Assembly (NCBI RefSeq): GCF_001686925.1
Contig: NZ_LVEN01000027.1
Coordinates: 620,001 to 684,000, forward strand
DNA length: 64,000 nucleotides
Reading direction: 5' to 3'
DNA from: Flavobacterium piscis
GTDB lineage: Bacteria > Bacteroidota > Bacteroidia > Flavobacteriales > Flavobacteriaceae
Shown piece after piece: positions 40,247 to 43,572 of the stretch. Numbering within the stretch: position 1 is the first letter of the stretch; each line of letters begins with the position of its first letter. Made by a program: the position numbers and the translations under genes. A model generated the notes under the pieces. It saw only the letters and a list, made by a program, of their open reading frames with translations, ran no database searches and was not told the DNA's origin.

Positions 40247-41044
40247 ATGAATAAAATGAGCGAAAAAACGAAACCGTATGCCTTAATAACTGGCGCCAGC
40301 AAAGGCATTGGAAAAGCTATTGCTTATGAATTGGCCAAACAGGGTTATCCGCTATTGCTTGTTGCAAGAAGTGAAGCCGAATTAAAAGCACTATCTGATG
40401 AGCTGAAGATTAAATACGACATCAATGTAGCTATTTTATCGATTGATCTTTCGACAGATGGTGCATCGCAAAAAGTAACCGATTGGATAAAAAGCAATAA
40501 CTATCCTGTTGGCGTTTTAGTAAACAATGCCGGTTATGGTGTGTGGGGCGATTTTAGTCAGTCTTCTCTAACCGATCAGCTTGGCATGATGCAGCTTAAC
40601 ATGAATGTCGTAGTAGAACTTTCACATTTATTAATCCCCATACTTTCACAAGAAAAACAAGCCTACATTTTAAATATATCGAGTACTGCTGCTTACCAGG
40701 CTGTACCTACGCTGGCGGTGTATTCGGCTACAAAGGCTTTTGTTTTATCGTTTACGCGTGCTTTGCGTTTCGAACTTGCCCAAACTTCCATTTCAGTAAC
40801 CTGTTTTAGTCCGGGTCCGGTTGCTACTGGTTTTGCTTCAAGAGCGGGTTTAGACGCTTTCAGCAAAATGGCCGAAAAGTTTAATATGCAGCCTGATGAA
40901 GTGGCAAAAATGGCGGTAAAAGCCATGTTCAACAAAAAATCAGAAGTTATTCCGGGTTTTACCAATATCATTTCGGTTTATGCCAACCGCATACTACCAA
41001 AGGCTTTCATCGAAAAAACCGCTGCCGGAATTTATAAAATTTAA
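40247..41044 (+). CDS. SDR family oxidoreductase
   Basis: 265 residues. TGASKGIG is near residues 16-23 and NNAGYG near 95, with catalytic Ser in NISSTAAYQ and YxxxK in YSATK. The ketoreductase-like SDR family (fabG/DltE-like) fits the length. ATGs at 40247 and 40256 are both possible starts. It is divergent from the AraC gene and is the last gene before the poly-cysteine ORF, which has its own promoter 31 bp downstream, so it is probably not in that operon. Confidence 0.85.
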   Translation: MNKMSEKTKPYALITGASKGIGKAIAYELAKQGYPLLLVARSEAELKALSDELKIKYDINVAILSIDLSTDGASQKVTDWIKSNNYPVGVLVNNAGYGVWGDFSQSSLTDQLGMMQLNMNVVVELSHLLIPILSQEKQAYILNISSTAAYQAVPTLAVYSATKAFVLSFTRALRFELAQTSISVTCFSPGPVATGFASRAGLDAFSKMAEKFNMQPDEVAKMAVKAMFNKKSEVIPGFTNIISVYANRILPKAFIEKTAAGIYKI

Positions 41045-41074
41045 TTTTTTCAAAAAAAAAATAAAAAAATATTC

Positions 41075-41103
41075 TTTGCAAATAAGAAATTATATTACAT
41101 TTG
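41075..41103 (+). promoter_or_regulatory. Near-consensus Bacteroidetes promoter of the poly-Cys / PhyH operon
   Basis: TTTG (41075-41078), a 17-bp spacer and TACATTTG (41096-41103) match the -33 TTTG / -7 TAnnTTTG consensus of the primary Bacteroidetes sigma factor. The start of transcription should fall near 41110, about 30 nt before the poly-cysteine ORF. Confidence 0.7.
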
Positions 41104-41139
41104 TATAAATATCTACTAATTCTATAGAGTATATCTAAT

Positions 41140-41220
41140 ATGAGAAATAAGTTTAATTTTACTAAAGATCGAATGCACGCCAACACTATGCGAATGTGTT
41201 GCTGTTGTTGCTGTTGCTAA
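41140..41220 (+). CDS. 26-residue ORF ending in seven consecutive cysteines (candidate cysteine-sensing leader peptide)
   Basis: The ORF reads MRNKFNFTKDRMHANTMRM followed by seven Cys codons (TGT/TGC mixed, not a simple repeat) and then directly TAA. It lies just behind a near-consensus promoter and 53 bp before the PhyH-like gene. A run of identical codons right at the end of a short upstream ORF is the hallmark of attenuation by amino-acid supply; poly-cysteine leader ORFs that respond to cysteine are described in mycobacteria. No terminator hairpin lies in the 53-bp gap. A weak 7-bp pairing between 41162-41168 and 41222-41228 would enclose the Cys codons. A metal-binding or modified peptide is an alternative. 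The Cys run itself is certain; the function is inference. Confidence 0.65.
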   Translation: MRNKFNFTKDRMHANTMRMCCCCCCC

Positions 41221-41273
41221 TTCTTTAGATAAAATTTCAAACACTATTATTTCATTTATTAAATATATTTATC

Positions 41274-42080
41274 ATGGTATCTTCATATAAAACATTTACC
41301 CTTACTGAGCAATTAACTGCTGAGCAAACAAACTTTTTTAACGAACATGGCTTCATCCATTTCAAAAAATTTATAAATCCGGAAACGGTTTCATCCATCA
41401 TTGATGCATCAAAACAAGTGGAGCAAAAATGGATTGACAACGACCTTCAAAAAGTAAATGGTGTTCCCATTAAATACGGAAAAGATTTAGATGGTTCTCC
41501 AATTGTACAGCGTTTTGCTTTTATCAATCAGCATCATCAAACCTTAAGCGGACTTTTACTTGATCCAAGATTCAATAGTTTATTACCATTGGCAGGCGAG
41601 GGGTCGAGATTGGGTACTGAAGAAAAAGACGGAATGGTTTTCAATCACTATATCAACGGGCCGGAAAGTAAGTTTACTAAAATGGGCTGGCATACAGACG
41701 GTTTAAGAGATATTTTTTATGGTGGAAAATTAAACCCGATGTTAAATGTGGGTATTCACTTGAGCACTTTACAACCCGAAAACGGCGGCCTTAAAATCAT
41801 TCCGGGTACGCACAAGCAAAGTATTTATCAGATGCTTTTTCGTAAAAAATACTTTTTAGATAATAAACCTGATCCACAGGAAGTTGCTATCACTCCGGAA
41901 GCTGGAGATTTAACCATTCACGATGGCCGTTTGTGGCACAGAGTGGCAGAATCAACCATCCGTGGCGAAGCAAGCAGAAGAAGAGTTATTTATGTTCCCA
42001 TTATAGCCGGAAAATATGCTCCAAAAGATGAGAACAGCCCAACGGTTTTTTATCAACGTTTTGCGGGTATTGTTAAATAA
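41274..42080 (+). CDS. Phytanoyl-CoA dioxygenase (PhyH) family Fe(II)/2-oxoglutarate enzyme
   Basis: 268 residues, cytoplasmic. The PhyH metal triad can be placed: His140-x-Asp142 in the MGWHTDG motif and His222 in DGRLWHRVAES. A following Arg (Arg230 or Arg236) should bind the 2-oxoglutarate carboxylate. GxHLSTLQPENGGLKIIPGTHK is the typical core of the family. Members hydroxylate fatty acyl chains, amino acids or natural products. The ORF follows the poly-Cys leader by 53 bp and precedes a CDP-alcohol phosphotransferase and a GtrA protein on the same strand. A lipid or cell-envelope substrate is therefore plausible but not shown. Confidence 0.85.
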   Translation: MVSSYKTFTLTEQLTAEQTNFFNEHGFIHFKKFINPETVSSIIDASKQVEQKWIDNDLQKVNGVPIKYGKDLDGSPIVQRFAFINQHHQTLSGLLLDPRFNSLLPLAGEGSRLGTEEKDGMVFNHYINGPESKFTKMGWHTDGLRDIFYGGKLNPMLNVGIHLSTLQPENGGLKIIPGTHKQSIYQMLFRKKYFLDNKPDPQEVAITPEAGDLTIHDGRLWHRVAESTIRGEASRRRVIYVPIIAGKYAPKDENSPTVFYQRFAGIVK

Positions 42081-42082
42081 TT

Positions 42083-42217
42083 ATGCTGATTGCCCTTGCA
42101 TTTAGTTATCTGGTTAGATCAGGTAAGCTAAAAAGAACCAGCGATTTCTTTAAAAATACGCAAAGAAAAATAAAATTGAAAATTATAAAACTAGAATTGG
42201 CTTACTCTCAGGCTTAG
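42083..42217 (+). CDS. Possible 44-residue microprotein inside the PhyH operon (weak)
   Basis: An ATG ORF starts 2 bp after the PhyH stop and ends 16 bp before the CDP-alcohol phosphotransferase start. It has a short hydrophobic N-terminus (MLIALAFSYLV) and a very basic remainder (KLKRTSDFFKNTQRKIK). Position and lack of overlap fit a real small gene, but there is no obvious ribosome site and no known relative, so it could equally be chance in a 153-bp spacer. Confidence 0.25.
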   Translation: MLIALAFSYLVRSGKLKRTSDFFKNTQRKIKLKIIKLELAYSQA

Positions 42218-42233
42218 TAATATTGTTTTATTA

Positions 42234-42920
42234 ATGGGAAAAGAAACACAGGTTGAAGATTATAATGAAATTGCACAAAGAACATTTTCAGACCGTAAGC
42301 GAACTAATATTTTAAAAAAAGCAGAACAGTCAACGATTGTATTTTTGCTTCCAAAGGTGCCTAAATTCATTTCGCCCAACGTGCTCACTTTAATAGGTAC
42401 ATTGGGTTCGGGACTCGTTTTTTTAGCTTTTGTTTTAGGTACTTATTTAGCCAATTGGTATTTGCTTTTGGGTATTATCGGATTGGCTATAAATTGGTTA
42501 GGCGATTCTTTAGACGGAAGATTGGCTTATTATAGAAATACTCCGCGCCGCTGTTATGGTTTTGCACTCGATATTATTGCCGACTGGATTGGCATTGTAC
42601 TTATAGGCTTTGGCTACTACATTTATGCTGAAAATGCCACACAAATAGTAGCTTTTGCTTTTGTCGCCTTGTATGGCTGGTCGATCATCATCAGTCAGTT
42701 ACGCTATAAAATCACCAATGAATACAGTATAGATTCTGGCGCTGTCGGCCCAACAGAGCTTCGGTTTATTATTGCTTTTATTTTAATAGCAGAAGTTTTA
42801 TTTCCGGGATCCATTACCTATTTGGCTGGCTTAATCACTATTATATTGCTTATAATTAATATCATAGACAGCGTAAAACTTTTAAAGCTAGGCGATTTAA
42901 AAGATAAAAACCAATACTGA
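42234..42920 (+). CDS. CDP-alcohol phosphatidyltransferase family membrane protein
   Basis: 228 residues with about five to six membrane segments. The family's metal/CDP site is visible as Asp91-xx-Asp94-Gly95-xx-Ala98 and, further on, Gly109-xxx-Asp113-xxx-Asp117. The Arg that normally follows the Ala (DxxDGxxAR) is Tyr99 here. The family transfers a phospho-alcohol from a CDP-activated lipid or alcohol to an acceptor, making phosphatidylglycerol-P, phosphatidylserine, inositol lipids and similar products. The gene ends 1 bp before the GtrA gene, indicating tight coupling. The acceptor is unknown. Confidence 0.85.
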   Translation: MGKETQVEDYNEIAQRTFSDRKRTNILKKAEQSTIVFLLPKVPKFISPNVLTLIGTLGSGLVFLAFVLGTYLANWYLLLGIIGLAINWLGDSLDGRLAYYRNTPRRCYGFALDIIADWIGIVLIGFGYYIYAENATQIVAFAFVALYGWSIIISQLRYKITNEYSIDSGAVGPTELRFIIAFILIAEVLFPGSITYLAGLITIILLIINIIDSVKLLKLGDLKDKNQY

Positions 42921-42921
42921 A

Positions 42922-43353
42922 ATGTTCAGGAAAAAATCCATAATCACTTTTCTACAAGCACAAGTTGCGGCATTTTTAGGCGGCATTACCGATTATGGCT
43001 TGATGATTTTACTAACTGAAGTATTCAAATTACATTTCACTTTTTCTATTCTAATCTCCGGAACCGTTGGCGCCGTTATCAATTTCAGCATCAATAGATT
43101 TTGGGTATTTAAAAATCAATCTGGTTATAGCAGTCCGATCAATAACCAGCTTTTTAAATTTGCGTTGGTGGTGTTAGGAAGTATTTCCCTAAAATCATTT
43201 GGAACGCTTATGTTGCAAAAATCATTTCAAATCGATTATAGAATCGGAAGATTGATCATTGATAGTTTTGTTTCTTATGGATTTAACTATCCGCTGATTA
43301 AAAATTGGGTTTTTAGGTCAAACGATAAACAGAATGTAGTCGAATCAAATTAA
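42922..43353 (+). CDS. GtrA family membrane protein
   Basis: 143 residues, four predicted TM helices. The GtrA signature is clear: an N-terminal FLQAQVAAFLGGITDYGLMILL, then the INFSINRFWVF motif (typical xNFxxxRxWVF), and a second FNYPLIKNWVF near the end, showing the internal repeat. GtrA proteins are thought to move lipid-linked sugars or other lipid intermediates across the inner membrane. Coupled to a CDP-alcohol phosphotransferase 1 bp upstream, it probably handles the product of that enzyme. Confidence 0.9.
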   Translation: MFRKKSIITFLQAQVAAFLGGITDYGLMILLTEVFKLHFTFSILISGTVGAVINFSINRFWVFKNQSGYSSPINNQLFKFALVVLGSISLKSFGTLMLQKSFQIDYRIGRLIIDSFVSYGFNYPLIKNWVFRSNDKQNVVESN

Positions 43354-43470: not shown

Positions 43471-43572
43471 TTGTCATCTCGACGAAGGAGAGATCACACT
43501 AGTATTTCCGGTCAGATATTCGCCAATCTTTGTCGAGTTTCTTGTGTGATCTCTCCTTCGTCGAGATGACAA
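43471..43572. repeat. Long perfect palindrome with 29-bp arms
   Basis: The arm at 43471-43499 (TTGTCATCTCGACGAAGGAG, then AGATCACAC) is repeated in exact reverse complement at 43544-43572, with a 44-bp spacer. This GC-richer sequence stands out from its AT-rich surroundings and resembles dispersed palindromic repeats common between flavobacterial genes. Confidence 0.85.

Follow-up and report, generated by a model that had tools for sequence, protein, structure and literature searches.

A conserved mini-ORF ending in cysteine codons is a probable cysteine-sensing leader of a PhyH operon in Bacteroidota

Results

The window analysed here is a 64-kb stretch of Flavobacterium piscis DNA in which a promoter, a palindrome, a mini-ORF ending in cysteine codons and a PhyH operon follow one another, the promoter and all genes being on the forward strand. 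The Bacteroidota-type promoter (41075–41103) consists of TTTG at 41075–41078, a 17-nt spacer and TACATTTG at 41096–41103, and its -7 box is seen in most ortholog rows among those listed in the upstream alignment. For comparison, the available part of a study of F. psychrophilum gives TAnnTTTG as the sigma-A consensus (PMC9723704). A 17-bp palindromic operator, TCTACTAATTCTATAGA (TCTAYWRAWTYWRTAGA; 41112–41128, no strand assigned), lies 9–25 nt past the -7 box. The leader ORF, MRNKFNFTKDRMHANTMRMCCCCCCC followed by the stop codon TAA (41140–41220), has its ATG 37 nt past the -7 box, from which we infer a 5' UTR of about 30 nt with a predicted start site. It ends in seven consecutive Cys codons (TGT TGC TGT TGT TGC TGT TGC; 41197–41217) with TAA at once behind them, and nowhere else on either strand of the window do three or more Cys codons in a row (or MCxCC) abut a stop. 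A G-poor spacer of 53 nt without a terminator hairpin (41221–41273), a candidate Rho-loading or translation-control region, separates the leader from the gene for a PhyH-type Fe(II)/2OG dioxygenase (41274–42080; PF05721, E 1e-15). Further downstream are genes for a CDP-alcohol phosphatidyltransferase family protein (CDP-OH_P_transf; 42234–42920) and a GtrA family membrane protein (42922–43353), both assigned by Pfam, and ahead of the leader promoter lies a conserved upstream neighbour, an SDR oxidoreductase gene (40247–41044). An Rfam scan of 40900–41400 gave no match.

Two further features accompany the operon. A possible small ORF of 44 aa, MLIALAFSYLVRSGKLKRTSDFFKNTQRKIKLKIIKLELAYSQA (42083–42217, forward strand), fits between the PhyH and CDP-alcohol phosphotransferase genes, and a similar stretch is visible in locus L003. 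Just past GtrA, at about 43474–43570, stands a long inverted repeat (tcatctcgacgaaggagagatcaca / tgtgatctctccttcgtcgagatga), which may be a terminator or an interspersed repeat.

An earlier reading made from the DNA letters alone (the sequence-only reading) had described a TTTG-N17 promoter, an ORF ending in seven Cys codons and TAA, a 53-bp gap to a PhyH-type Fe(II)/2OG gene, a mixture of TGT and TGC in the run, and a gene set of PhyH, CDP-alcohol phosphotransferase and GtrA; each of these is confirmed at the coordinates above, the gene set by Pfam. The palindrome between promoter and ORF was absent from it.

Residues H140, D142 and H222 of PhyH are invariant in 20 orthologs, and we take them, by analogy with the family, to be its active-site triad. 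A phmmer search of PhyH against the PDB returned only weak matches (MysH, SnoK), and structure prediction reached a mean pLDDT of only 41.6. We know of no cysteine role for PhyH itself.

PhyH orthologs were taken as the best 80 of 125 relatives, the other 45 not being examined; 55, among them one filed as [Flexibacter], belong to Flavobacterium and its family and 25 to Pedobacter or its family, and together with the window they give 81 leaders and upstream regions. The nearest named relative is F. aquidurense DSM 18293, with a PhyH 99% identical. Conservation of the Cys run, the one check proposed in the sequence-only reading that could be run, was borne out: at least three consecutive Cys codons occur within 400 nt upstream of PhyH in 79 of the 80 orthologs, across two orders. 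The exception, L115, has a broken run and reads MRMYCCGA, and L107 and L112 have three Cys only. In 80 sequences including the window, the run is three codons long in 2, four in 26, five in 8, six in 21, seven in 12, eight in 10 and nine in 1; these runs contain 272 TGT and 177 TGC, with TGT and TGC alike used at positions one, two and three. The bare string alone is weak evidence, the whole genome of F. piscis holding one TGYx4-TAR match and the reversed-pattern control also one; it is the conservation in 79 of 80 orthologs that lifts the leader ORF above chance.

Flavobacterium leaders resemble MSNKRN-FNFPK--MHANMRMC(n) and Pedobacter leaders MSNKTNLFYFPSVPNHSPMRMCCCCA. Seven leaders, the window's and those of six relatives, have ATA in place of the usual first ATG and a new in-frame ATG three codons further on, and in two more the first remaining ATG lies nearer the run, after a frameshift in the N-terminal part (L037) or after loss of the first ATG with none gained (L101). 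For the three largest groups, which make up 60 of the 81 leaders, N-terminal pN/pS is 0.68, 0.55 and 0.84, against 0.43–0.93 in the two wrong frames, which indicates conservation of the reading frame and of the Cys codons but not of the peptide. The stop falls before PhyH in 63 of 81 leaders. The remaining 18, all from Flavobacterium, have no stop past the run and their frame continues beyond the PhyH start, a feature absent from the sequence-only reading.

The block SDR, leader, PhyH, CDP-OH_P and GtrA is common to Flavobacterium and Pedobacter. By tblastn over the 80 loci, SDR is found in 74, CDP-OH_P in 78 and GtrA in 78, with some loci cut at contig ends and the SDR matches possibly including paralogs. 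Between Pedobacter and the window, PhyH is 81–89% identical and the three neighbours are 57–70% identical.

The operator is conserved along with the leader. In the PhyH upstream alignment TCTACTAATTCTATAGA forms a strongly conserved block past the -7 box in the rows listed, and it occurs with at most one mismatch in 73 of 81 upstream regions (2 of 1,620 single-base shuffles) and with at most two in 79 of 81 (31 of 1,620). The F. piscis genome has 74 sites with up to three mismatches where a reversed control has 34, and a weak site on its own therefore carries little weight; those with three mismatches are often inside genes and were not counted, except the metY and Rrf2-TonB sites described below. 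The pattern TCTAYTAATTNNATAGA gave 61 matches in 24 of 81 Flavobacterium genomes against one in the control.

Several operator sites in the F. piscis genome precede sulfur genes, often with a leader of their own. A site with one mismatch precedes a TonB-SusD-sulfatase-sulfatase series with a leader ending in YMCFCC, and in the same series a further site (two mismatches) lies upstream of a fatty-acid hydroxylase gene, with rhodanese and PF03601 genes beyond. Another one-mismatch site belongs to a Glu/Leu dehydrogenase gene (gdh; L195, contig C12, about 377.5–377.85 kb), with a terminator (-15 kcal/mol, z -6.2) downstream of its leader MTMKNFSLYIIPFMCSFTMCCMSNDAMKWR. Sites with three mismatches precede an OAH sulfhydrylase gene (metY; TIGR01326 above cut-off), where the leader MKTIANNMMICCEMMQMCIPIRCCQK has a strong terminator behind it (-18.1 kcal/mol, z -4.6), and a TonB receptor gene adjoining an Rrf2 gene, with a leader ending in SSMMCMC. 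A site with two mismatches to the window copy also stands before a gene with a SAM riboswitch (RF00162), behind which come thioredoxin-like and class-V aminotransferase genes. The SAM-riboswitch gene and the TauE gene of L224 show that operator genes without an evident Cys leader exist.

Separately, two Met/Cys-rich mini-ORFs are visible upstream of the Glu/Leu dehydrogenase gene, and the SAM riboswitch transcript (L194; contig C27, about 422.7–423.1 kb) carries a leader-like ORF, MKTEQILPACPEQFTLFSKIENHFQVFRMHYT, before the thioredoxin-like gene.

Two Rrf2-family genes adjoin operator-type sites in the same genome. One is CymR-like (NF047409, 78.5 bits, below the cut-off of 195); the other has no CymR match at 1e-20. 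The CymR-like gene has an operator-resembling sequence, ACTAATTTAGTCGAA, in its own upstream region and adjoins two PF01507 genes (cysH/cysD type), TauE genes and a nitrite/sulfite reductase gene, with a CysN-like ORF (by eye) also beside it. A palindromic operator common to sulfur genes, with an Rrf2 gene nearby, meets the hallmark of an Rrf2/CymR-type regulon.

The same operator was surveyed in 31 Pedobacter genomes, yielding 44 matches in 23 of them against six in the control. Among 30 loci read, five belong to PhyH genes and read MRMCCCCA, and further ones lie ahead of a gene for a tetrapyrrole methylase, TonB genes, a pyridine-nucleotide-disulphide oxidoreductase gene (three loci, one checked) and an FGE-sulfatase gene with a leader ending in QMMMCCCCNE. 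Six lie inside genes, and several others have no evident sulfur link.

Leader patterns were searched for directly as well. The bare TGYx4-TAR string is present in 187 of 299 family genomes and was rejected as a survey tool, 29 of 30 fetched loci lying inside a longer ORF and none having the operator upstream. In 395 genomes of the phylum, ATGMGNATGTGYTGYTGY gave 19 matches against one in the control: seven PhyH leaders, two with a SAM-I-IV riboswitch on one side and a TonB-type gene on the other, and ten inside longer ORFs. GAATGTGYNNNTGYTGYTRA gave 11 against one in the same number of genomes; L289 and L290 are leader-like and the other nine overlap longer ORFs. The MCxCC-stop pattern (ATGTGYNNNTGYTGYTRA) gave 32 matches in 61 Flavobacterium genomes against seven in the control. 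Within the 220 nt considered, an operator with at most two mismatches lies 109–163 nt upstream in 20 of the 30 loci read, none of these 20 being inside another gene; of the other ten, eight are inside long ORFs and two intergenic, and two have a 3-mismatch site. The genes after the 20 leaders are 16 of TonB type, three for serine acetyltransferase and one for a sulfatase. TonB-type naming rests on N-terminal resemblance, with Pfam checks of L227, L250 and, via L256, L236. The serine acetyltransferase at L230 scores 151 bits to EpsC NF041874 (cut-off 150) and 168 bits to TIGR01172 cysE, below its cut-off of 211. Genes of cysteine or sulfur supply, namely serine acetyltransferase, OAH sulfhydrylase and sulfatase, are among the other operator or leader targets.

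Some arrangements met in these surveys are recorded here as observations. In L126 and L127, loci from two genomes of another family of the order, an MRMCCCF mini-ORF lies between the SAM-I-IV riboswitch and the TonB-type gene (named by eye), with two sulfur sensors in tandem on one transcript. Flavobacterium TonB transcripts L199, L205, L210, L213, L222 and L225 have a second mini-ORF close to the gene, for example MKKRMCCR or MKIMHTCCCK (MKKRMCSR in L225), mostly with a hairpin immediately 3', such as CCATTTCTG-TTGCAG-CAGAAATGG (-14 to -15 kcal/mol, two folded).

RNA folding gave no terminator past the PhyH leader: 41170–41273 folds no better than shuffles (z 0.72). No consensus fold was found in 56 Flavobacterium sequences; Pedobacter PhyH leaders form small hairpins in a consensus fold, with a compensated change in 2 of 25 pairs. 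Of 25 other leaders, 24 have a hairpin of 6 bp or more immediately 5' of the Cys codons (222 of 2,500 shuffles), in a few of them as the same stem from different sequences; it was rejected as a feature of the PhyH leaders, only three of 80 having it.

Past the 20 MCxCC leaders the sequence is C-rich and G-poor, C minus G being +12.3 per 150 nt against -1.5 in 342 control upstreams, in which PhyH upstreams were left. In the 50 nt before PhyH, C minus G is +3.9 against +0.3 in Flavobacterium and +10.0 against +0.8 in Pedobacter, and 19% and 0.8% of controls, respectively, are as C-biased. The p-values of this comparison overstate it because the sequences are related and not independent. The bias fits Rho loading, weakly, and does not prove it. 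Rho loading has likewise been proposed, weakly, for actinobacterial Cys leaders in the part of that source available (PMC1262725, section 6).

Discussion

We observe the ORF and its conservation, the operator, and a regulon shared with similar Met/Cys leaders. In the absence of expression or binding data, the best reading is a leader of the poly-Cys kind within an Rrf2-type sulfur regulon of Bacteroidota. That the ORF encodes a cysteine-sensing leader peptide is, we judge, probable: nearly every relative examined retains it, and its promoter signal is common to sulfur-scavenging genes with similar mini-genes, which together point to a sensor of cysteine shortage, whereas translation, a cysteine response, the identity of the repressor and any action by stalling have not been shown. 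The central claim of the sequence-only reading, a Cys-codon leader tying the PhyH operon to cysteine supply, is to this extent supported by the conserved run, with translation and cysteine response still inferred. Strong independent support comes from the operator shared with sulfur genes and from the similar Met/Cys-rich mini-ORFs before serine acetyltransferase, OAH sulfhydrylase, sulfatase and TonB genes. Against the leader reading stand the lack of a terminator and of a consensus fold, the rarity among PhyH leaders of the hairpin seen in the other leaders, the absence of any cysteine role known for PhyH, the 18 leaders without a stop, the operator genes without an evident Cys leader, the broken run of L115, the three-Cys runs of L107 and L112, and the altered starts of L037 and L101.

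The gene set of the regulon leads us to expect induction at sulfur or cysteine shortage. In a first step, which we infer from the common operator and the genes behind it, a repressor of the Rrf2 family (probably the CymR-like protein) would bind the palindrome at 41112–41128, shutting the promoter when sulfur is plentiful and letting transcription start when it is short. In a second step, also inferred, ribosomes would translate the leader and, with charged Cys-tRNA scarce, stall in the Cys run by the stop codon, raising expression of PhyH and the downstream genes; with cysteine plentiful they would finish quickly and expression would stay low. The output that we prefer, on weak support, is that a ribosome parked at the ORF end may mask a G-poor, C-containing Rho-loading site.

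A different output from the same cysteine sensor is possible, although we hold it only tentatively: ermC-type translation attenuation without Rho, in which the PhyH start region is base-paired to the leader until a stalled ribosome frees it, an output that would be almost as likely as Rho masking. Single-sequence folds were sampled for 14 of the 81 sequences, and the leader pairs with the PhyH start region in all nine Flavobacterium samples, with 49–68% of that region paired and a z of -2.5 for the window (20 shuffles); yet several of the sampled folds do not beat shuffles in energy, this pairing is scant in the five Pedobacter samples and no consensus pairs emerge in the 56 sequences. Also on its side, regulation of M. 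smegmatis cysteine genes is called translation attenuation in the part of that source available (PMC13236596).

It is improbable, by our estimate, that the leader is passive, merely loading ribosomes for PhyH by re-initiation or overlap while the Rrf2-type operator alone senses sulfur and the Cys run is incidental. The leaders that read beyond the PhyH start suit such coupling, the operator alone would explain sulfur regulation, and the TauE gene of L224 and the SAM-riboswitch gene do without a Cys leader; but coupling needs no Cys codons, which are nevertheless kept in nearly every ortholog, and Cys-rich ends recur before unrelated sulfur genes. Hardly credible is a functional Cys-rich micropeptide, binding metal or modified by the PhyH oxygenase, the alternative offered in the sequence-only reading and suggested by seven terminal cysteines adjoining an oxygenase gene: outside the run there is no protein-level constraint, the Cys number varies from 3 to 9, the stop is lost in 18 of 81, similar leaders precede genes of other kinds, and the hallmarks of a RiPP precursor are not met, with N-terminal pN/pS like that of the off-frames and no typical peptide-maturation family among the eight window proteins scanned.

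Returning to the cysteine-sensing leader, a broader and distinctly speculative extension would be two-layer cysteine control over Bacteroidota sulfur acquisition, by an Rrf2-type operator and Cys/Met-codon leaders. The PhyH/CDP-alcohol phosphotransferase/GtrA operon would be its sulfur-starvation module, acting either through an oxygenase that frees the sulfur of an organosulfur compound or as a lipid switch that exchanges sulfur-containing lipids for others when cysteine is short. Sulfonolipids, offered in the sequence-only reading as one speculative link, are neither favoured nor ruled out by these data. The findings place poly-Cys leaders in two Bacteroidota orders, within a sulfur regulon with its own operator, give a lead on function for a conserved gene block of unknown purpose, and open Flavobacterium cysteine sensing to direct test with a single reporter.

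Each layer has known counterparts. The CymR/Rrf2 cysteine regulon of Firmicutes has a palindromic operator at promoters of sulfur genes, as here, where an Rrf2 gene also lies beside sulfur genes; the present case differs in belonging to Bacteroidota, in its SusCD/sulfatase targets and added leader layer, and in lacking binding data. Transcription attenuators of the hisL/pheL type carry one amino acid repeated close to the end of the leader, a likeness extended by the F. piscis metY and gdh leaders, which are followed by strong terminators, whereas the PhyH leader has no intrinsic terminator. E. coli tnaC is a Rho-dependent leader in which the stall comes from tryptophan. The proposed ribosome held at the leader end and masking a Rho site just past the stop would resemble it, but the stall here would come from Cys-tRNA shortage and a role for Rho is suggested by composition only. 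Poly-Cys leaders reportedly act as cysteine-responsive attenuators in mycobacteria, according to Canestrari et al. in 2020, and to our knowledge such leaders are known only from Actinobacteria.

In 2005 Seliverstov et al. (PMC1262725) predicted leaders in Actinobacteria that have a Cys run at the stop; the part of the paper available also names the tna operon (section 6). As far as that part goes, the two cases share a short ORF with Cys codons by the stop upstream of a regulated gene, the lack of a conserved terminator hairpin and a proposal that Rho loads in the spacer. A source on F. psychrophilum describes attenuation by leader peptides ahead of amino-acid operons, with cysteine not named in the part of it available (PMC9723704), and the titles and abstract openings of the literature found name no Cys leader in Bacteroidota. 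The present leaders differ from the actinobacterial ones in occurring in Bacteroidota joined to an Rrf2-type operator, in preceding a PhyH/CDP-alcohol phosphotransferase/GtrA operon alongside sulfur genes with Met/Cys leaders, and in sometimes running past the start of the target gene; unlike the mycobacterial leaderless poly-Cys class, they have a predicted transcript start that is not at the ATG. With poly-Cys leaders already known in Actinobacteria, mycobacteria included, and none found for Bacteroidota, the case is a variation on a known theme, and what is new is a poly-Cys-type leader in Bacteroidota that is not leaderless and comes with an operator layer and an unexpected target.
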